A stretch of DNA of 64,000 nucleotides, taken from positions 1 through 64,000 of the forward strand of contig NZ_QWBW01000021.1 in the NCBI RefSeq assembly GCF_004117855.1, given 5' to 3'. The position numbers were made by a program, and so were the translations under genes. Shown piece after piece: positions 23,325-58,465 of the stretch (positions are counted from its first letter, which is position 1; every line of letters starts with the position of its first letter). This stretch comes from Modicisalibacter coralii (GTDB lineage Bacteria; Pseudomonadota; Gammaproteobacteria; Pseudomonadales; Halomonadaceae). The notes beneath the pieces are model-generated. The model was not told the origin of the DNA. It made no database searches and saw nothing but the letters and a program-made list of their open reading frames with translations.

Positions 23325-23423
23325 GGGAACTCCGGTTCAGGTCATCACTAATGAAGGCATTTTAACGCGCTTGCAGACCACCGAGAAAAGTCCGCAGGTT
23401 CTCATGCGCGGAGAAACGCTGAA

Positions 23424-23525
23424 CAAATCGCCGAGCAGTGTAAAGCGCAAGGCGCACGGAGCACAGAAACCGGAGCCTATGAGTTATAGGTGAGGATTTC
23501 GAGCACCGCGCAACGCAGCGATTTG
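23424..23525 (-). repeat. Intergenic palindromic element, copy A (3' of mutM)
   Basis: Outer arms CAAATCGC (23424-23431) and GCGATTTG (23518-23525) enclose a central hairpin CCTAT-GAGTT-ATAGG (23476-23490), followed by TGAGGATTT. It shares its architecture with copies at 25205, 50179 and 51895. It lies 25 bp beyond the mutM stop. Its central stem has a different sequence from the other copies but still pairs perfectly. Confidence 0.7.
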
Positions 23526-23550
23526 CCTGCGCAGGCATTTGCGTTGTTAC

Positions 23551-24366
23551 TCAGGTCTGGCAGCGTGGGCAGAACACGCTCGCCCGCTGCCCCAGGGTGA
23601 TCTGGCGCAGCTCGCCGCCGCAGCGCCGGCAAGGCTCGCCGGCCCGGCCGTAGACGTTGAGTCGCTGGGAGAAATAGCCCGGCTCGCCGACACCGCTGAC
23701 GAAATCGCGCAGCGTGGTGCCGCCCTGACTGATCGCCGCGGCGAGCACCTCGCGGACCGCCTCGGCCAGCCGGTCGTAGCGCTCGCGGCCGATGCGCCCG
23801 GCGGCGCGACGCGGGTCGATGCCGGCCAGGAACAGCGCCTCGGCGGCGTAGATGTTGCCCACACCGACCACCACGGCGTTGTCCATCAGAAACGGCTTGA
23901 CCGCCAGACGCCGTCCCCGCGACAGCCGGTACAGCCGCTCGCCGTCGAAATCCGGCGACAACGGCTCCGGCCCCAGCCTGGCCAGGCGCGGATCGCTGGC
24001 GACGTCGCCGGCCAGCCAGTCGACGAAGCCGAAGCGGCGCGGATCGTGATAGCGCAGGATGGCGCCGTCATCGACCACCAGGTCGACGTGGTCGTGTTTC
24101 TTCGGCGGGTCGCCGACCCGGGCGATGCGCAGGCTGCCCGACATGCCCAGATGCCAGAGCAGCGTGCGCTCGCCGGTGGGCACGATCAGGTACTTGGCGC
24201 GACGGCGCAGCTCGCCGATCCGCCGCCCGATCAGGTGATCCTCGAAATCCACCGGCACCGGCGTGCGCAGGCGCCGCTCGCGGACGATCACCTCACGGAT
24301 CTCGCCGCCCTCTAGGTAGGGGGCGACGCCGCGGCGGGTGGTCTCGACTTCGGGCAACTCGGGCAT
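23551..24366 (-). CDS. mutM: Formamidopyrimidine-DNA glycosylase
   Basis: A 271-residue DNA repair enzyme that removes 8-oxoguanine and nicks the DNA. The N-terminal [12 protein letters not shown] carries the catalytic proline and glutamate; K in the conserved LxxHxGMSG region ([11 protein letters not shown]) is followed by the C-terminal zinc finger CRRCGG...FCPRCQT, which is intact. The start is set at MPELPEV because the initiator Met must be removed to expose Pro; the longer frame adds five residues. It follows rpmB-rpmG, as in E. coli, but behind a strong terminator. Confidence 0.96.
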
Positions 24367-24421
24367 GCAGGACTCCGACACGAGCGAGGAGAGAGCGAAT
24401 CACACGGGACGAGCAGAGACG

Positions 24422-25128: not shown

Positions 25129-25204
25129 GCTACATTCGCAGGAGGCGCCACGGCAAATCATGCGCCAAGAGCCGGATAGGCCACCCTACATGACCAGAGC
25201 CTCT

Positions 25205-25327
25205 CGAAAAGTCGGCGAGCGAAGGTCAGGCAAGGCAAAAATCAGCGAAAAAGCGGAGTTTACGAGCTGTAAATGAGCATTTTGAGCTGATTTTTAACGC
25301 CGCATGACCGAGCGCAGCCACTTTTCG
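25205..25327 (-). repeat. Intergenic palindromic element, copy B (3' of radC)
   Basis: The clearest copy. Outer arms CGAAAAGT (25205-25212) / ACTTTTCG (25320-25327); inner arms AAAAATCAG (25237-25245) / CTGATTTTT (25287-25295); central hairpin TTTAC-GAGCT-GTAAA (25259-25273), then TGAGCATTTTGAG. The right end is 3 bp from the radC stop. Same architecture as copies A, C and D. Confidence 0.8.
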
Positions 25328-25330
25328 GGC

Positions 25331-26005
25331 CTACAACCAGCCCCGTTCGGCGAACGACACCACCTCGCCGTCGCCGACCACGAAATGGTCGAGCACGCGG
25401 ATCTCGAACAGCGCCAGCGCCTCCTTGAGTCGCTCGGTGATGCGGCGGTCGGCGTCGCTGGGCTCGGCCACGCCGGACGGATGGTTGTGCGCGAAGATGA
25501 TCGCGCCGGCCCCCAGTTCCAGGGCGCGCCGGGCGACCTCGCGCGGGTAGACCGAGGCGCCGTCCAGCGTACCGCGGAACAGCGACTCGAAGCGAATCAC
25601 CCGGTGCTGGGTATCCAGAAACAGCGCGGCGAACTCCTCGTGGCCGAGATGGCGCAACTGCGAGGCGAGATAGGCCCGCACCAGCGACGGCGAGGTCAAG
25701 GCGCCGCCGCGCTCGAGCTGACTGGCAAGATGGCGCCGCGAGAGCTCGAGCACCGCCTGCAACTGGACGTACTTGGCCTCGCCCAGGCCGTGCTCGGCAC
25801 AGAAGCGCTCGCGGTCGGCCTCGAGCAGCGGCCGCAGGCCGCCGAAGGCGCCCAGCAGATCACGTGCCAGATCCACGGCCGAACGCCCCTTGACGCCGAC
25901 CCGCAGGAAGATCGCCAGCAGCTCGGCGTCGCTGAGCGCCTGCGGCCCCAGCCCCAGCAGCTTCTCGCGGGGGCGCTCGCCCTCGGGCCAGTCGCGAATC
26001 CCCAT
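25331..26005 (-). CDS. radC: RadC / JAMM-domain protein
   Basis: A 224-residue protein with an N-terminal helix-hairpin-helix region ([20 protein letters not shown]) and a C-terminal JAMM metalloprotease-like domain (FAHNHPSG followed by S...D, with His-x-His and Asp ligands). The name RadC is historical; a DNA-repair role is not established. In E. coli and P. aeruginosa radC is directly divergent from coaBC; here about 10 kb separate them. Confidence 0.93.
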
Positions 26006-26928: not shown

Positions 26929-27037
26929 GCTCGTAGCTCGTAGCTCGTAGCTCGTAGCTCGTAGCTCGTAGCTCGTAGCTCGTAGCTCGTAGCTCGTAGC
27001 TCGTAGCTCGTAGCTCGTAGCTCGTAGCTCGTAGCTC
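26929..27037. repeat. Tandem heptamer array, 15 x GCTCGTA
   Basis: Fifteen perfect head-to-tail copies of GCTCGTA (26929-27033) plus a partial GCTC. It lies between the start of the acid phosphatase gene and the divergent GntR regulator. Such perfect short arrays change copy number by slippage. It is outside any coding frame, so it would act on promoter spacing or the leader of the phosphatase mRNA. Confidence 0.97.
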
Positions 27038-50178: not shown

Positions 50179-50272
50179 GAAGGCGGCGAGCTAGCGCCAG
50201 GGCGCACGGGGAGTCGCTGGCGGAATGTACGAGGTTGTACATGAGCAAAGCGAATCCCCGCGCCGCGCCTTC
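50179..50272 (-). repeat. Intergenic palindromic element, copy C (3' of lysS)
   Basis: Outer arms GAAGGCGGCG (50179-50188) / CGCCGCGCCTTC (50261-50272), inner arms CGGGGAGTCGCT / AGCGAATCCCCG (11 of 12 pair), central hairpin TGTAC-GAGGTT-GTACA (50226-50241), then TGAGCAAAG. The right arm runs into the lysS stop codon (50271-50273). Confidence 0.75.
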
Positions 50273-51821
50273 AGTCCGCGGCGGGGCGCATGGCCGGGAA
50301 CAGCAGCACGTCGCGGATCGAGGCGCTGTCGGTGAGCAGCATCACCAGCCGGTCGATGCCGATGCCCTCGCCCGCGGTGGGCGGCAGGCCGTGCTCGAGC
50401 GCACGAATGTAGTCGGCATCGTAATACATCGCCTCGAGATCGCCGGCGTCCTTCTCGGCGGCCTGGGCGGCGAAACGCTCGGCCTGATCCTCGGCGTCGT
50501 TGAGCTCCGAGAAGCCGTTGGCGATCTCGCGCCCGCCGACGAAGAACTCGAAGCGGTCGGTGACGAAGGGATCGCTATCCTTGCGCCGTGCCAGCGGGCT
50601 GACCTCGGTCGGGTAGTCGGTGATGAAGGTCGGCTCCTGAAGACGGTGTTCGACGGTCTTCTCGAAGATCTCGATCTGCACCTTGCCCAGCCCCCAGCCA
50701 TCCTTGACGTCGATGTCCAGGCGTTCGGCGATCTGGCGGGCGGCGGACTCGTCGGCCAGTGCCTCGGCGCGGATCTCGGGGTTGTACTCGAGAATGGCGT
50801 CGAACACGCTCAGCCGGCGCAACCGCTGGCCGAAATCGTACTCGACGCTCTCCAGCACCTCGCCCTCGGCATCGCGCACGGTGTTGGTCACGGTGGTGGT
50901 GCCGAGCACGCGCTGGGTGACCTCGCGCAGCATGGCCTCGGTGAGGTCCATCAGGTCATGGTAGTCCGCGTAGGCCTGGTAGAACTCGATCATGGTGAAC
51001 TCGGGGTTGTGCCGCGTCGACAGCCCCTCGTTGCGGAAGTTGCGGTTGATCTCGAAGACCCGCTCGAAGCCGCCCACCACCAGCCGCTTGAGATAGAGCT
51101 CGGGGGCGATGCGCAGGTACATGTCGATGTCCAGCGCATTGTGGTGGGTGATGAACGGCCGGGCCGTGGCGCCGCCAGGGATCGGCTGCAGCATCGGCGT
51201 CTCGACCTCCATGAAGCCGTGATCCTCGAAGAACCGGCGCATGGCGCTGATCACCCGGGCGCGGGTCTCGAACACCCGCCGCGAGTCGGCGTTCATGATC
51301 AGGTCGACGTAGCGCTGGCGATAGCGCGATTCCTGGTCGGTGAGGCCATGGAACTTGTCGGGCAGCGGCCGCAGGCTCTTGGTCAGCAGCCGGGCATCGT
51401 CCATCTTGACGTACAGGTCGCCCTTGCCGGACTTGTGGACCGGGCCGCGCCCGGCGACGATGTCGCCGATGTCCCAGCCCTTGACGTCGTCGAGCACCTC
51501 GGCCGGCAGCCCTTTCTTGTCGACGTAGAGCTGGATCTGCCCGGAGACGTCCTGGATGACGATGAAGGGCCCGCGCTTGCGCATGATCCGCCCGGCCACC
51601 GCGGCCTGGCGATCCAGCGCCTCGAGTGCCTCCTTGTCCTTCTCGCCCAGTTCCGCCTGCAGCTCGGCGGCGGCGCTGTCGCGCCGGAAATCGTTGGGGA
51701 AGACACTCGTGCCGCGCTCGGCGGCCTGCTCGCGGCGCGCCGCCAGCTTGGCGCGCCGCTCCGCGATCAGGCGGTTCTCGTCCTGGCCCTCGACGGCCGC
51801 TTGGTTGTCCTGGTTCGCCAT
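50271..51821 (-). CDS. lysS: Lysyl-tRNA synthetase (class II)
   Basis: A 516-residue class II aminoacyl-tRNA synthetase that charges tRNA-Lys. The N-terminal OB-fold anticodon-binding domain ([20 protein letters not shown]) is followed by motif 1 ([20 protein letters not shown]), motif 2 ([20 protein letters not shown]) and motif 3 ([13 protein letters not shown]). It lies 185 bp downstream of prfB on the same strand, the usual prfB-lysS pair, with palindromic element D between them. Confidence 0.97.
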
Positions 51822-51894: not shown

Positions 51895-52009
51895 TGAGCG
51901 ACGACGAGGCAAGGCGCGGCGATGCGAATCAGCGCAGTGGACGCGGTTGTCCATGAGCATGATGAGCAGCGCCGCAACACCGCCTCGTCGAGCGCAATAG
52001 CGTCGCTCA
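51895..52009 (-). repeat. Intergenic palindromic element, copy D (3' of prfB)
   Basis: Outer arms TGAGCGACG (51895-51903) / CGTCGCTCA (52001-52009), a second pair CGACGAGGC (51902-51910) / GCCTCGTCG (51982-51990), central hairpin TGGAC-GCGGTT-GTCCA (51938-51953), then TGAGCATGA. The right arm contains the prfB stop codon (52007-52009). Confidence 0.78.
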
Positions 52010-53105
52010 AAGGCCTTGTTTGAGGCTGGCTACAATGAACTGATCCAGATCCCCGTCCAGCACCTTCTCGCAGTTGCTGGTCTGCACCCCGGTCCGCAGG
52101 TCCTTGATGCGCTGGTCGTCGAGCACGTAGGAGCGGATCTGGCTACCCCAGCCGATGTCGGCCTTGCTCTCCTCCGCCTCCTGCTTGGCGGCGTTGCGCT
52201 TCTGCATCTCCAGTTCCCACAGCTTCGCCTTGAGCTGCTTCATGGCGAAGTCGCGGTTGGCGTGCTGACTGCGCTGACTCTGACACGACACCACGATGCC
52301 CGACGGCTCGTGGGTGATGCGCACCGCGGAATCGGTGGTGTTGACGTGCTGGCCGCCGGCGCCGCTGGAACGGTAGGTGTCGACGCGCAGGTCGGCCGGA
52401 TTGATCTCGACCTCGAAGCTGTCGTCGATCTCCGGCGACAGGAACACCGAGGCGAACGAGGTGTGACGACGCCCGCCGGAATCGAACGGACTCTTGCGCA
52501 CCAGTCGGTGCACACCGGTCTCGGTGCGCAGCCAGCCGAAGGCGTACTCGCCCTGCACGTGAATGGTCGCCGACTTGATGCCCGCCACCTCACCGCCGGA
52601 CAGCTCGGTGATCTCGGCCTTGAAGCCGTGATGCTCGGCCCAGCGCAGGTACATGCGCAGCAGCATGTTGGCCCAGTCCTGGGCCTCGGTACCGCCGGAA
52701 CCGGCCTGGATGTCGAGATAGGCGTTGTTCTCGTCCATCTCGCCGGAGAACATGCGCCGGAACTCGAGCTTCTCCAGCGCCGTCTCGAGCTGACCGAGCT
52801 CCCGGTTGACCTCGTCGACGGTGGCGTCGTCCTCTTCCATCACCGCCAGCTCGAGCAGCTCGCGATTGTCGGCGAGCCCCTTGTCGAGCTCGTCGATGGT
52901 GGCGACGATCTGCTCGAGACTGGCCCGCTCCTTGCCGAGCTTCTGGGCGTAGTCGGGATCATTCCAGACGTCGGGGTTCTCGAGCTCGCGGGTGACCTCT
53001 TCTAGCCGATCCTTCTTCTCGGCATAGTCAAAGATACCCCCTCAGGACGTCTGTCCGCTCGGACAGGTCCTTGATGAGATGGTTGATCGGATTGATCTCT
53101 TGCAT
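52007..53105 (-). CDS. prfB: Peptide chain release factor 2, with programmed +1 frameshift
   Basis: RF2 terminates translation at UGA and UAA. The first 25 codons ([20 protein letters not shown]...) run from ATG at 53105 to an in-frame TGA at 53030-53028, and the rest continues in the +1 frame to 52007, giving 365 residues, the same as E. coli. The specificity motif SPF ([14 protein letters not shown]) and the catalytic GGQ ([12 protein letters not shown]) are intact. A conceptual join is needed: the second frame alone looks like a shorter gene starting late. It precedes lysS. Confidence 0.96.
53028..53042 (-). promoter_or_regulatory. prfB programmed frameshift site
   Basis: On the minus strand AGGGGG (internal Shine-Dalgarno-like, 53042-53037), three bases, then CTTTGA (53033-53028). 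This is the classic autoregulatory slip: low RF2 leaves UGA unread and the ribosome shifts +1 at CUU. Confidence 0.95.
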
Positions 53106-53390: not shown

Positions 53391-54965
53391 ATGTCACCGA
53401 CTCGTCTTGCCACCGCGCTCGCCGTCGCGGCCAGTATGACCTCGCTCTCGCTCCAGGCCCAGACACTCAACATCGGCATCTCCGGCTCGCCCAGCTCGCT
53501 GAGCCCGGCCCGGGTCACCGGCGGCGTCTGGGAGGAAGACGTGCTGCGCGATATCTTCGAGGGCCTGGTGGCGATCGACGCCGACGGCCGGATGATTCCG
53601 GGCATGGCCAGCGACTGGGAGATCTCCGACGACGGCACCGTCTATACCTTTCACCTGCGCGACGCCGAGTGGTCCGACGGCGAGCCGGTCACCGCCGACG
53701 ATTTCGTGTTCGCCTTTCGCCATCAGCTCGACCCGGCGACCGCCTCGAACTACGCCCACCGCCTCTATCCGCTGGTCAATGCCCGCGCCATCAACAGCGG
53801 GGACAAGCCGCTCGACGCCCTGGGTGCCGAGTCGCTGGACGACGGCCGGACGTTGCGCCTGACGCTGGCAGAGCCCGCCGCCTACTTCTTCAAGACCCTG
53901 GTGCTGCCGTTCGGCTACCCGCTGCCCGAGCACGCCGTCGAGCGCTACGGCGATGCCTGGAGCAAACCGGCCAACATCGTCGTCAACGGCGCCTTCAAGC
54001 CGGTCGACTGGGTGTCCAATAGCACCCTCGAGACCGTCAAGAACCCCCGCTACCACGACGCCGACGCGGTCACTCTGGACGGCGTCGACTTCCACCCCAT
54101 GGAGGACAAGCAGGCCGGCATCCAGCGCTTCCGCGCCGGCGAGCTCGACATCCTGCGCGACTACCCGGCGGCGCGCTACCCCTGGCTCGAGGAGAACCTG
54201 CCCGAAGCCACCCACCTGGCGCCCTCGCTGGGCACCTACTATTACGTCTTCAATCTCGCCGACGACTCTCCGGTGGCCGACCCGCGCATCCGTGAGGCCC
54301 TGAGCCTGGCGATCCGCCGCGAGGTGATCGCCGACCAGTTGCTCGAGGGAGCCGTGGAGCCCGCCTACGCCCTGGTGCCGACCGGTACCGACCACTACCA
54401 GCCGCAGCCGCAGCCCGGCCTGCAGCAGCCCATCGACGAGCGTCAGGCGCGCGCCCGGCAGTTGATGAAGGAGGCCGGCTACGACCCCGATCATCCCCTG
54501 CACCTCACGCTGCGCTACAACAGCGGCGACGAGCACCGTCAGATCGCCGTGGCGATCGCCGCGATGTGGAAACCGCTGGGGGTCGAGGCCGAACTCCGCC
54601 ACACCGAAGCCAGCGTGCACTACGAGGACCTGATGGCCGGCGACTTCCAGGTCGCCCGCGCGGCCTGGATCTCCAGCTACGACGACGCCCAGAACTTCCT
54701 GCAGTTGCTCTCGGCCGAAAGCAACAACTACGGCGACTATCAGAACGACCAGTACGACGCCCTGATGGCCGAGTCCGACGTCACCCAGGACGCCGACGAG
54801 CGCGAAGCGTTGATGGAACACGCCGAGCGCATCGGTCTGGCCGACTACCCGCTGACACCGATCTACGTCTATACCTCGCGCAACCTGGTCGACCCGGCAC
54901 TCGACGGCTGGCACGACAACGCCCTGAACATGCACCCCTCCCGCTGGGTCCATATCGGCGACTGA
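53391..54965 (+). CDS. Peptide ABC transporter binding protein (OppA type), paralogue 1
   Basis: A 524-residue periplasmic solute-binding protein of cluster C (SBP_bac_5). The signal peptide ends near LSLQAQ (about residue 23), with no lipobox. Core motifs: DWEISDDGTVYTFHLRDAEW near residue 75, NGAFKPVDW, FRAGELDILRDYP and NLADDSPVADPRIREALSLA. It binds oligopeptides for import by the permease encoded downstream. A hairpin follows the stop. It is the first of three consecutive paralogues; peptide specificity of each is unknown. Confidence 0.9.
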   Translation: MSPTRLATALAVAASMTSLSLQAQTLNIGISGSPSSLSPARVTGGVWEEDVLRDIFEGLVAIDADGRMIPGMASDWEISDDGTVYTFHLRDAEWSDGEPVTADDFVFAFRHQLDPATASNYAHRLYPLVNARAINSGDKPLDALGAESLDDGRTLRLTLAEPAAYFFKTLVLPFGYPLPEHAVERYGDAWSKPANIVVNGAFKPVDWVSNSTLETVKNPRYHDADAVTLDGVDFHPMEDKQAGIQRFRAGELDILRDYPAARYPWLEENLPEATHLAPSLGTYYYVFNLADDSPVADPRIREALSLAIRREVIADQLLEGAVEPAYALVPTGTDHYQPQPQPGLQQPIDERQARARQLMKEAGYDPDHPLHLTLRYNSGDEHRQIAVAIAAMWKPLGVEAELRHTEASVHYEDLMAGDFQVARAAWISSYDDAQNFLQLLSAESNNYGDYQNDQYDALMAESDVTQDADEREALMEHAERIGLADYPLTPIYVYTSRNLVDPALDGWHDNALNMHPSRWVHIGD

Positions 54966-54987
54966 CCGACATGTGAATTTTCTCACA

Positions 54988-55015
54988 ATCGCCCCGCCTG
55001 GCTGCGCGGGGCGAT
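54988..55015 (+). terminator. Terminator hairpin after the first OppA paralogue
   Basis: ATCGCCCCGC / GCGGGGCGAT, a 10-bp stem with an 8-nt loop, 22 bp after the stop. The 215 bp beyond, up to the second paralogue, contain no gene I can support. Confidence 0.6.
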
Positions 55016-55229
55016 CGGTCCTTGCCATGGCGCTATGCGATTTTTGAAACACTCATGCAAAATTCCAAATGGACTCCCCGATTCGGGTGAGCGATGGTCT
55101 GATGAATCACGGGTTCGCGAGCCTGCTAAGCATAAGCCAAGGCGACGCCCGGGGGCCGGTTGTCCCCCGTCGCGGCGTCTGCCCGGCCTGCGAACGTCAT
55201 CGGGACAACAACAACACCCGGGAATTCCA

Positions 55230-56816
55230 ATGCGTCTGAAACGTCATACCCTGATCGCCGCCATCGCCCTATCCTCCGCCACGCTGGCCGGGCCGCTACA
55301 GGCCCAGACCCTCAACATCGGGGTCATGGGTGAACTCGCCTCCTTCGATACCTCACAGGTCTCGGGTGGGGTCTGGGAATCGCAGATCCTCATGGACGTC
55401 TACGAAGGGCTGCTCAAGGAGAACCCCAAGGGTGAGGTCCTGCCCGGCATGGCCACCGACTGGGAGATCTCCGACGACGGCAAGACCTACACCTTCCACC
55501 TGCGCGACGATGCCAAGTGGTCCGACGGCGAGCCGGTCACCGCCGAGGACTTCGTGTTCGGCTGGCAGCATCTGCTCGATCCCAAGAGCGCCTCGAAATA
55601 CGCTTACCTGCTCTACCCGATCGAGAACGCCGAAGCCATCAACACCGGTGACAAGCCCCTCGATGCCATCGGCGCAGAATCGCTGGACGACGGCAAGACA
55701 CTCAAGGTCACACTCGAGTCACCAACGCCGTTCTTCCTGCAATTACTCACCCACTACACCGCCTACCCATTGCCAAAGCACGCCGTCGAGGCGTATGGCA
55801 AGCAGTGGGTCAAGGTGGACAATATCGTCACCAACGGGGCCTTCAAGCCGGTCGAGTGGGTCTCGCAGTCACGCATCAGCGTCGAGAAGAATCCCGAGTA
55901 CTATGACGCCGCCGACGTTTCCCTCGACGGCGTCAACTACTTCAACGCCGAGGACCGCAACGCCGCCATCTCGCGCTTCCGCGCCGGCGAACTGGACATC
56001 ATTCGTGACTATCCCTCGAGCCGTTATCAATGGCTCAAGGACAATCTACCCGACGCTACCCATCTGAGCCCGATGCTGGGCTCCTATTACTACGTGCTCA
56101 ACAACCGCGAGGGTCGCCCAACGGCGGACGAGCGCGTCCGGGAAGCGCTCAACCTGGTGGTCCGTCGCAAGGTGCTTTCCGAACAGATCATGGCCGGCAG
56201 CTTCAAGGATGCCTACTCGCTGGTGCCGCCCGGCACCAGCCATTACGACGTCCAGCATATGGACGGCGTCGATGGCGACTATCAGGAGCGCCTGGCCAAG
56301 GCCAAGCAACTGATCAAGGAAGCCGGCTACGGCCCCGACAAGCCGCTGCACCTGCAGCTGCGATACAATACCAGCGACGAGCACAAGAAGATCGCCATCG
56401 CCCTGGCGGCGATGTGGAAACCCCTCGGTGTCGAAATCGAGATGACCAATGCCGAGGCCACCGTCCATTATCAGACCATTCAGCAAGGCGACTTCGACAT
56501 CGCCCGCGCCGGCTGGATCGCCGACTACAACGACGCCGAGAACTTCCTGACCCTGCTGCGCAGCGGTGTCGGCAACAACTATGGTGCCTACTCCAACCCC
56601 GAGTACGACAAGCTGCTCGATCAGGCCGCTAACACGCAGGATCTCGACAAGCGTCAACAGCTTCTTCAGAAGGCCGAAAACGTGGCACTGGACGATTACG
56701 CCCTGGCCCCGTTGCTGTTCTACGTCACCCGCAACCTGGTCAATCCCGCGCTCGAAGGCTGGCAGGACAACGCCGAGGACGATCACCCCTCGCGCTGGGT
56801 GTCGTTCACGGAGTGA
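55230..56816 (+). CDS. Peptide ABC transporter binding protein (OppA type), paralogue 2
   Basis: A 528-residue periplasmic binding protein; signal peptide cleaved near PLQAQ (about residue 26). It is clearly similar to the first paralogue (DWEISDDGKTYTFHLRDDAK, NGAFKPVEW, FRAGELDIIRDYPSSRYQWL) but uses more Lys and more A/T-ending codons. The upstream gap of 264 bp with a terminator suggests its own promoter, though I find no clear one. A strong GC hairpin separates it from the third paralogue. Confidence 0.9.
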   Translation: MRLKRHTLIAAIALSSATLAGPLQAQTLNIGVMGELASFDTSQVSGGVWESQILMDVYEGLLKENPKGEVLPGMATDWEISDDGKTYTFHLRDDAKWSDGEPVTAEDFVFGWQHLLDPKSASKYAYLLYPIENAEAINTGDKPLDAIGAESLDDGKTLKVTLESPTPFFLQLLTHYTAYPLPKHAVEAYGKQWVKVDNIVTNGAFKPVEWVSQSRISVEKNPEYYDAADVSLDGVNYFNAEDRNAAISRFRAGELDIIRDYPSSRYQWLKDNLPDATHLSPMLGSYYYVLNNREGRPTADERVREALNLVVRRKVLSEQIMAGSFKDAYSLVPPGTSHYDVQHMDGVDGDYQERLAKAKQLIKEAGYGPDKPLHLQLRYNTSDEHKKIAIALAAMWKPLGVEIEMTNAEATVHYQTIQQGDFDIARAGWIADYNDAENFLTLLRSGVGNNYGAYSNPEYDKLLDQAANTQDLDKRQQLLQKAENVALDDYALAPLLFYVTRNLVNPALEGWQDNAEDDHPSRWVSFTE

Positions 56817-56826
56817 GCCGCTGTCT

Positions 56827-56854
56827 CCCCGGCCCGGCGACGTCCGGGCCGGGG
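56827..56854 (+). terminator. Intercistronic hairpin between OppA paralogues 2 and 3
   Basis: CCCCGGCCCGG / CCGGGCCGGGG, an 11-bp all-G/C stem with a 6-nt loop, 10 bp after the stop, without T-run. It probably stabilises or partly terminates the message, giving more binding protein than permease. Confidence 0.6.
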
Positions 56855-56881
56855 TCGTCGTCCTCGAGTGGGAAACCGACC

Positions 56882-58465
56882 ATGTCCTTTCGCCGCCTGA
56901 TTCCCGCGCTACTGCTGGCCGGCACTGCCGCCGCCATGGCGAGCGGTGCGCCGGCCGCCACCCTGGCCATCGGCAATGGCGCCGAGCCCGGCACCCTGGA
57001 CCCGCAGAAGACCAGCGGCGCCTGGGAGACGCGCATCACCCGGTCGCTGTTCGACCGCCTGATCGATTATGACGTGGACGGCAGCCTGGTGCCCGGGCTC
57101 GCCGAGTCGTGGCGGATCAGCGACGACGGTACCGTCTACACCTTTCACCTGCGCGACGCCCGGTGGTCCGACGGCGAGCCGATCACCGCCAGCGATGCCG
57201 TGTTCGCGCTGCGCCGCCTGCTCGCGCCGGCCACCGCCAATCACAACGCCAACCTCTACTACGCGATCCACAATGCCCGGGCGGTGAACACCGGCAAGGC
57301 CGAACCGGCGACGCTCGGCGTCTCGGCGCCCGACGACCGTACCCTGGTCGTCCACCTCGACCAGCCCGCCGCCTATTTCCTCCAGGCCCTGGCGATGAGC
57401 GAGGCGGCACCACTGCCCGAGCACCTGATCGAACGCGCCGGCACGGGCTGGACCGAGCCGGGCACCCTGGTGTCGAGCGGGGCCTTCACCCTCGAGGCGT
57501 GGCGACCGCAGGCCTTCGTGCGCGTGGCGAGGAATCCGCGTTTCTACGCCGCCGACAGCGTGGCCCTCGACGGCGCGACCTTCTATCCGATCGACGACGC
57601 CGGGGCGGCGCTCAACCGCTTTCGCAGCGGCGAACTCGACATCGCCTACTCCGGGGTGCCGGCGGCGCGATTCGACTGGGTGAAGCAGCACCTCGGCGAC
57701 GCCCTGCGCGTCGGCCCGCTGGTCGCCGAGTACTTCTACATGTTCAACCTGCGCGACGGCCAGCCCCTCGCCGACCCGCGCGTCCGCGAGGCGCTCAATC
57801 TCGCCGTGCGCCGCGACGTGATCACCCGGCAACTGCTGGGCATGGGCCAGCGCAGCAGCTACTGGTACGTGCCGCGCGCCACCGCCGGCGGCACCCGGGG
57901 CCGCATGGCCTTCGCCGAGGAATCGCCGGAGGCGCGCCTGCAACGCGCCCAGGCCCTGATGCGCGAGGCCGGCTACGGTCCCGAGCATCCGTTGCCGCTG
58001 ACCCTGCGCTACAACACCCTCGAGGATCACAAGAAGATCGCCGTGGCGGTGGCGGCGATGTGGAAGCCGCTGGGTGTCGAGGTCGACCTGATCAACAGCG
58101 AGGCCGCGGTGCACTACGCGGCGGTCGCCGCCGGCGACTTCCAGGTCGCGCGTTACGGCATGGTCGCCACCGTCGACGACCCCTATGACTTCCTCAACGC
58201 CTATGCCGACGGCGGCAGCGCCGCACGCAGCAGCGGCTATCACGACGCCGACTACGACGCCCTGGTCGAGCGCAGCACGCAGACGCTCGACCCGGCGGCC
58301 CGAGCCCGGCTGATGACCCGGGCCGAGCAGCGCCTGCTCGACGACTACGCCCTGCTGCCGCTCTACGATTACGTCAGTGCCCACCTGGTGGCCCCCGGCA
58401 TCACGGGCTGGCAGTCGACACCGACCGACGTTCACCCGCTTCGTTACATCCAGATCGAGGACTGA
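56882..58465 (+). CDS. Peptide ABC transporter binding protein (OppA type), paralogue 3
   Basis: A 527-residue periplasmic binding protein with a signal peptide ending near APAA. It has the canonical OppA ligand-loop start NGAEPGTLDPQKTSGAWE, where paralogues 1 and 2 have diverged. SWRISDDGTVYTFHLRDARW and SSGAFTLEAW follow. Its stop is 72 bp before the first permease gene, so it is the copy most tightly tied to the transporter. The start at MSFRRLIP is chosen because the longer frame lacks a signal-like N-terminus. Confidence 0.9.
   Translation: MSFRRLIPALLLAGTAAAMASGAPAATLAIGNGAEPGTLDPQKTSGAWETRITRSLFDRLIDYDVDGSLVPGLAESWRISDDGTVYTFHLRDARWSDGEPITASDAVFALRRLLAPATANHNANLYYAIHNARAVNTGKAEPATLGVSAPDDRTLVVHLDQPAAYFLQALAMSEAAPLPEHLIERAGTGWTEPGTLVSSGAFTLEAWRPQAFVRVARNPRFYAADSVALDGATFYPIDDAGAALNRFRSGELDIAYSGVPAARFDWVKQHLGDALRVGPLVAEYFYMFNLRDGQPLADPRVREALNLAVRRDVITRQLLGMGQRSSYWYVPRATAGGTRGRMAFAEESPEARLQRAQALMREAGYGPEHPLPLTLRYNTLEDHKKIAVAVAAMWKPLGVEVDLINSEAAVHYAAVAAGDFQVARYGMVATVDDPYDFLNAYADGGSAARSSGYHDADYDALVERSTQTLDPAARARLMTRAEQRLLDDYALLPLYDYVSAHLVAPGITGWQSTPTDVHPLRYIQIED

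Follow-up and report, generated by a model that had tools for sequence, protein, structure and literature searches.

A stretch of 64,000 nucleotides from Modicisalibacter coralii (contig NZ_QWBW01000021.1, positions 1 to 64,000; hereafter the window) contains four intergenic palindromes whose central hairpins vary in sequence and stay paired, raising the question of what these elements are and what maintains their fold. The original prediction attributed the paired changes to selection or a copying mechanism, and considered a REP-like mobile repeat, an mRNA 3' element or a protein-binding site. All four palindromes lie where it had placed them, with the core on the + strand in each (Table 1), and their central stems were correctly read as CCTAT/ATAGG, TTTAC/GTAAA, TGTAC/GTACA and TGGAC/GTCCA, each followed by TGAG(C/G)A. 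A strict core pattern matched four times in the window, against an average of 0.017 matches, and never more than 1, in 60 dinucleotide shuffles of the window. The explanation that we favour, at slightly better than even odds (roughly 0.55), is that the four are non-autonomous, palindromic MITE-like copies of about 140 bp with a conserved DNA hairpin and IS5-type mobilisation, and that at least two of these palindromes date back far enough for related genomes to share them.

Table 1. Palindromic elements and adjoining genes in the window. Scores are those of R1, a covariance model that was built on the four window copies and spans the 40 positions of the core; genes are named from Pfam domains.
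Feature	Position	Strand	Remarks
element 1	23410..23550	+	~141 bp; putative subfamily C type; ends by eye against subfamily C copies
element 1 core	23464-23502; central hairpin from 23472	+	R1 score 52.8 bits
element 2	25198..25332	+	putative subfamily A2 type; ends by eye; R1 score 55.2 bits
element 2 core	25247-25285; central hairpin from 25255	+	
element 3	50179..50272	+	downstream of lysS; R1 score 54.1 bits
element 3 core	50214-50253; central hairpin from 50222	+	
element 4	51895..52009	+	between prfB and lysS; R1 score 55.9 bits
element 4 core	51926-51965; central hairpin from 51934	+	
mutM	23551-24381	-	
radC	25331-26005	-	
lysS	50271-51821	-	
prfB	52007-52843	-	

Element 1 abuts the mutM stop codon, and element 2 has radC on one side and, on the other, ribosomal-protein genes, which we take to be rpmG and rpmB. 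By our reading of their ends, element 1 would belong to type C and element 2 to type A2 of the subfamilies described below; inspection by eye recognised no terminal repeats in element 3 and no target duplications in the window copies. Other repeats in the window include the heptamer GTAGCTC, present as fifteen perfect tandem units at 26933-27037; in one relative (G281), GTAGCTC units occupy the lysS-prfB gap, where the palindrome is missing. Positions 53391-58465 hold three tandem paralogous genes with repeated blocks 64-79% alike, and the two of the trio that were scanned encode family 5 solute-binding proteins (SBP_bac_5).

From the outside inwards, a copy comprises a terminal repeat, a GAGCG block (in the subfamilies of this genome), often (A/G)AGGC, a 10-nt arm, mostly GA, a 4-bp stem, a 2-bp step (GC or CC), GGAG or GCAG, and the 5-bp stem with its loop. 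The right half runs back through the stem partners, with TGA after the 5-bp stem, a bulged A after the 2-bp step and GA after the 4-bp stem, to the arm partner and, often, AAC(G/A). In element 2 the core reads GA-AAAA-GC-GGAG-TTTAC-loop-GTAAA-TGA-GC-A-TTTT-GA, preceded by AAGGC and a 10-nt arm and followed by the arm partner and AACG. Its bulges, being asymmetric, make the hairpin directional. The central hairpin with its trailing TGAG(C/G)A was thus recognised correctly, the conserved part being wider than first described; a loop close to GAGSTT is not a family-wide feature, loops being variable and 4-6 nt long.

Four copies had been counted originally; a search of the genome (4.44 Mb, 74 contigs) with R1 found many more, with 70 matches at E up to 10 and 64 at ≥28 bits, four of the latter being the training set. 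Distinct ends define subfamilies A (GCTCTGTCTGAAAA...), A2 (GTTTGTACGAAAAG...), B (GAGGGTGTTTACAAA...; 17 copies, 13 of them 141 bp) and C (GGAAGCGCTGAATAAAT...; 18 copies), and the unit measures 137-142 bp, to which nested hairpins add some 15-16 bp each. The family is carried by all 14 genomes of the genus; class-wide, R1 matched at E up to 0.001 in 93 of 274 genomes, this one among them, belonging to 81 of 222 genera, with 1 to at least 24 copies per matching genome (24 being the scoring cap). When one sequence was taken from each of 29 genomes, the core was the same and the ends were many and different, examples being CTAG|CAGGCTGTTGAAAAA, TTAA|GGAACCTCTGATTTA, CTAG|AAGCCATCTCAAAAC and TTTA|GGGTGCCTCTATAAA.

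An exact-pattern scan of named genomes returned at least 119 stretches. Those among the matches listed come from many Pseudomonas, from Salinicola, Halomonas, Xanthomonas, Chromobacterium and Chlorobium ferrooxidans, and from metagenome-assembled genomes (MAGs) labelled Nitrosomonadales, Mariprofundales, Alistipes, Rikenellaceae, Tannerella, Chitinophaga, Deferribacteraceae and Desulfobacula. The matches listed thus extend to Bacteroidota, Chlorobi and other phyla, many of them in metagenome bins; outside Gammaproteobacteria the records are mostly MAGs, which may be mis-binned, Chlorobium ferrooxidans DSM 13031 being an exception. Together with 50 elements from this genome and genus and 59 from the class, 118 from the named genomes (among the matches listed) form a set of 227 unique elements, selected by a pattern that requires complete pairing of the central stem. 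Because the exact pattern fixes GGAG and TGAG(C/G)A by construction, these motifs prove nothing in the named set, and it is the features outside the pattern that count: among the matches listed, the second stem was paired at 3 or 4 of its 4 positions in 114/118 elements (6/118 with shuffled flanks), and (A/G)AGGC and AAC(G/A) were both present in 63/118 (1/118 shuffled), pattern matches with such outside features reaching other phyla. The same two motifs were both present in 35/50 elements of the own genus and 34/59 of the class. Two query elements matched 8 and 16 of 72,556 plasmid records, respectively, and the exact pattern matched nine stretches in IMG/VR; one query element found none in 20,395 E. 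coli records, and two queries gave no match in phages. The distribution of the family is patchy but very wide.

The palindromes also contain smaller insertions. A tiny hairpin of 15-17 nt (e.g. CCGGGCTGGCGNNCCAG; variants TCGGACTCGCGCNCGAG and GACGCCGCGTCCCGG) is inserted at unpaired GA, on the right side between TTTTGA and G and on the left side between GCGGA and G, and the right-hand site is used in Pseudomonas too. Of the 28 exact copies of CCGGGCTGGCGNNCCAG in the genome, 25 (by eye) lie in palindromes or their remnants; the remaining three are in tRNA operons, where they lie in tRNA-Gly 3' gene halves that occur as repeats (L078, ~1400-1550, and L098/L099, ~1480-1940; contigs C7 and C74), where the site is the T-loop, directly after TTCGA and again a GA beside a stem, sometimes with two hairpins in tandem. 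Loci with the tiny hairpin are L072-L099, L013, L020-L023, L037-L041, L046, L051, L052, L057 and L065 in this genome, and elsewhere L294 (genus), L100 (order), L395, L402, L450 and L458 (Pseudomonas) and L468. In the palindrome at L072 (contig C2) the whole core, from the left GA site to the right one, has given way to a single tiny hairpin, as though a deletion had joined two inserts. In Pseudomonas, parts of the palindrome are taken up by other repeated pieces (L386, L387, L399, L398, L455, L456, L435), for example a ACTCGTTNCACTC... block following the stem and, within the left arm, a ...CGATGGCGGCCCCGC... block. Several small sequences seem to use the palindromes as landing sites.

The compensation first seen in the four central stems recurs among other copies of the family. 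In an alignment of 28 copies (five from this genome, 23 from other genomes), 21 of the 25 pairs changed on both sides, and 130 cells were compensated, against 49.1 (sd 5.6) in shuffles (0/500) and at most 51 in slid structures. Neither of the outcomes named beforehand as refuting the original prediction, a genome without further copies or an alignment lacking compensatory changes, was obtained. Core helices 3 and 4 were paired at 98.8% and 100%, and outer helices 1 and 2 at 64.3% and 70.7%, lower in part because the subfamilies differ in register. Among 57 unique cores, derived from 121 found with the model by skipping two with fewer than 9/11 pairs and collapsing duplicates, stem cells were Watson-Crick in 605 of 627 cases, with 10 G-T and 2 A-C. 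Eight positions were kept in 55 or 56 of these 57 cores, namely the first G and the A of GGAG, TGA, the bulged A and the 3' GA; the second G of GGAG (45, otherwise C) and the two bases of the 5' GA (40 and 53) were looser. The stems thus co-vary while the inner unpaired residues (GGAG/TGA and the bulged A) are the most conserved. The outer GA/GA was held in 27/50 own and genus elements, 45/59 of the class and, among the matches listed, 66/118 of the named set. The hairpin foot was GGAG in 42, GCAG in 16, GGAA in 5 and another sequence in 1 of the 64 own copies; the corresponding 177, 42 and 8 in the 227 elements come from a set that cannot test the foot, which its pattern fixes. The base before TGAG(C/G)A was always A or G in the 227 elements (ATG 207, GTG 20) and in 56/57 of the model-found cores, though every pair type occurs at some other positions of the stems.

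Orthologous copies at lysS-prfB, where selection can be separated from templated arm copying using natural sequence data, bear most directly on what maintains the fold. The element is present there in 10 of the 14 genus genomes (9/13 relatives, plus this genome) and absent from four. Across these ten copies, mean pairwise identity was 0.964 for 11 motif columns that are unpaired, 0.757 for the core stems and 0.519 for the arms of 10 bp. The arms were Watson-Crick in 94/100 cells, with no G-T and up to four pair types per position, and the core stems in 103/110 cells, with 5 G-T and 1 A-C. Whole 10-bp arms have been rewritten on both sides between orthologs with the loops unchanged, and nothing else argues as strongly that the fold is kept, together with particular unpaired bases in it.

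Arm copying alone, that is, quasipalindrome correction through template switching at replication forks with no selection on the fold, would account for much of this, including the few G-T pairs in core stems (10/627), their absence from the orthologous arms (0/100), the arm position at which each of the four pair types occurs and the rewriting of whole arms between orthologs. It also predicts, however, that unpaired residues should drift or become paired, and the inner ones are the most conserved (55-56/57; identity 0.964); five G-T pairs in the orthologous core stems likewise count against it, so that as a complete explanation it appears doubtful. It may hold for the outer loop, since the outer GA/GA is base-paired in 24/118 elements of the named set, among the matches listed. 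Arm copying alone fails to explain the frozen unpaired bases, and selection on pairing alone does not easily explain the scarce intermediates in the arms. Because frozen unpaired residues need selection, and scarce G-T intermediates, above all in the arms, suggest coupled change, we think that selection and a copying mechanism were the right pair to name and that both contribute.

Selection might instead act on a DNA site for a host protein (a nucleoid protein, a topoisomerase or a hairpin-binding factor), domesticated at some loci, e.g. lysS-prfB. Such a site would be consistent with the retention of element 4 at the orthologous place in 10/14 genus genomes with its unpaired residues frozen, and with a hairpin made directional by asymmetric bulges. 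It is nonetheless missing from lysS-prfB in 4/14 genomes, and the copy at the radC site is clear only in this genome and in G279, decayed in G275, and absent or a remnant in the others; absence in relatives at both sites indicates that the element is dispensable at each locus, and a host-protein site as the primary explanation is unlikely, although the protein-binding site originally proposed stays a candidate, as DNA. Two of the radC-site remnants, in relatives G277 and G283 (L264, L265), read ...TGAGCG(AGCG)CAG and look like deletions between GAGCG direct repeats.

The ends of the elements point to mobility. Terminal inverted repeats of 15 nt, matching at 13 or more positions, were found in 23/50 own and genus elements, 37/58 of the class (one of the 227 elements having been dropped for flanks too short) and, among the matches listed, 69/118 of the named set, against 3, 8 and 2 with swapped flanks. 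Inverted repeat and duplication of at least 3 bp occurred together in 17/50, 18/58 and, among the matches listed, 38/118 (3, 3 and 1 with right flanks swapped). Counting against mobility, many copies lacked a duplication of that length (33/50, 40/58 and 80/118, the last again among the matches listed). Duplications are 3 bp in subfamily B (TCA, TGA, TAA, CGA and TAT among them), several coinciding with the stop codon of the adjoining gene, which ends 51 bases from the core, and 4 bp in subfamily C (CTAA, TTAG, CTGG and TTCG among them). The copies, mostly intergenic, are short (137-142 bp without nested inserts) and non-coding, their frame not being kept open; terminal inverted repeats, target-site duplications and multi-copy dispersal, as in MITEs, complete the picture. 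High copy number, inverted repeats, short duplications and no coding signal are hallmarks of mobile elements. At the two orthologous sites the element is present in some genomes and absent from others, absences that may be deletions; for a young B copy (L033), compared in 14 genomes for an empty site, the right flank was not syntenic.

As for the mobilising enzyme, ISPsy19, of the IS5 family, has ends GAGGGTGTAGACAAAAT and a 3-nt duplication, according to the portion of the source available (PMC3189936), and the subfamily B ends (GAGGGTGTTTACAAA, 3-bp duplication) match these closely. Since this resemblance is joined by CTAG/YTAA duplications matching those given for MITEPsy1 in the same portion of that source, mobilisation by IS5-type transposases is likely. 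An autonomous insertion sequence with matching ends was found neither in this genome (end pattern, PF01609) nor, by eye, in six regions of genome G122, and two query transposases searched against 286 core-bearing loci gave a single match (E 3e-9), 5.5 kb from the core.

The suggestion of a REP-like mobile repeat holds for the mobile repeat, given the inverted repeats and short duplications, and fails for REP in the strict sense. A single-strand element of the REP/RAYT or IS200 type, with a Y1 transposase to move it, would share the high-copy, mostly intergenic hairpins with a foot tetranucleotide (GGAG in 42/64 own copies), but inverted repeats with DDE-type target duplications are at odds with it, the Y1 transposase domain (PF01797) had no match in this genome in a search whose control was positive in 5/14 genomes, and T was never the second foot base. 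That base was G or C in 57/57 unique cores, and a GTAG REP was rejected; the whole single-strand alternative is extremely improbable.

An RNA element, whether a 3'-UTR structure, an RNase target, a terminator or a small RNA, would find support in the RNA-fold z-scores of the four window copies (-2.08, -6.05, -2.36 and -4.46), in the mostly intergenic placement, with 17/64 copies between convergent genes, in a terminator-like match within element 1 at 23524-23537, and in core mismatches that lean towards G-T (10 vs 2 A-C). The 5 G-T and 1 A-C in 110 cells of the orthologous core stems would likewise fit RNA, or single-stranded DNA of the GA strand. RNA stems tolerate G-U on the functional strand. 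Over core and arms together, however, mismatches were 32 G-T vs 25 A-C (p = 0.43), and in the outer arms alone 22 vs 23 (arms with at least 7/10 pairs; cut-offs of 5, 6 and 8 gave 30:30, 25:25 and 19:11). Copies between co-directional genes were evenly divided, 16 on the same strand and 16 on the opposite one, the other own copies lying between convergent (17) or divergent (11) genes, in predicted ORFs (3) or with a gene called on one side only (1), in a count that excluded matches below 25 bits and used gene calls from a simple codon model. Terminator-like sites in two regions of the window numbered 2 vs 1.9 expected and 1 vs 1.1 expected in shuffles. At gathering scores, Rfam 15 returned no family in the window; the 201 bases around element 2 gave one chance-level match (E 4.2) outside the element, and two plasmid copies gave none. 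With no coding signal either, an RNA element is quite improbable, and the mRNA 3' element originally proposed is left unsupported by the 16:16 orientation and the lack of G-T preference among arm mismatches.

The absence of a transcribed-strand bias and the equal numbers of G-T and A-C in the arms favour DNA over RNA, equal numbers being as expected for constraint or copying on double-stranded or either-strand DNA, and we infer that the core works as folded DNA. DNA-fold z-scores ranged from -4.95 to -6.76 over both strands of two window copies, and in each of three elements the GA strand had a DNA folding energy ~3 kcal/mol more favourable than that of the complementary strand. Two further candidates were rejected. 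For a small peptide, GGAG...(A/G)TG resembles a ribosome site with a start codon, but the frame from the conserved RTG is not kept open (open over 57 bases in 120/227 elements, vs 75 and 136 in the other two frames). For replication-strand bias, the core lay, by eye, on the strand opposite the G-rich one in ~20/28 copies in G286 (one copy excluded), 21/30 in G284, 29/54 in G175 and 6/12 in G122, so that GC-skew orientation is biased in the first two genomes, of one genus, and not in the others.

One imperfect hairpin core is thus common to several different kinds of terminal repeats. If the palindromes are MITE-like copies, IS5-type DDE transposases would recognise the terminal repeats and move the elements in trans. 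The interior of the core, with G-A pairs, the bulged A and a 3-nt AAC bulge in place, might make a long palindrome tolerable during replication, its imperfections probably being hard to cut for hairpin nucleases such as SbcCD; the core could alternatively offer a grip to a candidate host protein. In a hairpin, either arm can serve as template for its partner, so that arms and terminal repeats could change symmetrically in a single event; a lineage would thereby be able to adapt to a different transposase with the core fixed. More tentatively, the family may possibly be a cross-phylum DNA module that parasitises transposition systems, with a fixed core, ends swapped by arm copying and a landing site for the 15-17-nt hairpin; the core would then be recognised by a conserved host factor or shaped against hairpin nucleases, and the tiny hairpin would prefer the G-A loops of the palindrome for insertion.

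Several known systems resemble these palindromes in part. MITEPsy1 of Pseudomonas syringae, for which transposition was shown in vivo, is likewise short and non-coding, with terminal inverted repeats and the 4-nt CTAG/YTAA duplication found in several subfamilies here; it measures 100 nt and has other ends, compared by description and not by sequence, and the available portion of that paper describes no conserved interior shared across MITEs with different ends (PMC3189936). The likeness to ISPsy19, as far as that portion goes, is confined to the ends, the palindromes having no transposase. REP/BIME/REPIN sequences and TIRtrons are also intergenic, high-copy hairpins with an asymmetric foot, judging from the accessible parts of their descriptions (PMC3733652, PMC6006769); they differ from the present elements, which are ~140 bp long, without a GTAG tag, with DDE-type duplications and without a Y1 transposase in the own genome. 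R178 of P. fluorescens, 101 bp long and present in all three strains, has an internal inverted repeat and intergenic placement, as here (PMC2718517), and may in part be the same family, judged from the available description and not from a consensus. QMITE1 and QMITE2 of Coxiella, another gammaproteobacterium, are palindromic MITEs too, and differ, in the part of the source available, by 7-11-nt duplications and a GTAG REP (QMITE2) or by a length of 300-400 bp and transcription (QMITE1) (PMC5896051). The literature searched, comprising the main texts of papers free of subscription, held no recognisable description of this core.

Integron attC sites offer a structural parallel, being imperfect, strand-asymmetric DNA hairpins with extrahelical bases and a box pair RYYYAAC / GTTRRRY. 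The palindromes share the imperfect asymmetric hairpin and differ in having inverted repeats and duplications instead of cassettes; as candidates for attC itself they were rejected, the box pair occurring in 0/227 elements (shuffled mean 1.18). MITEs are usually regarded as leftovers of insertion sequences, in which the ends are important and the interiors are not. Here, unlike in that view, the ends differ and the DNA fold of the interior is conserved across genera, even at individual unpaired bases. If true, this would mean that selection acts on the secondary structure of chromosomal DNA and that there is a route by which a non-autonomous element can change its transposase.
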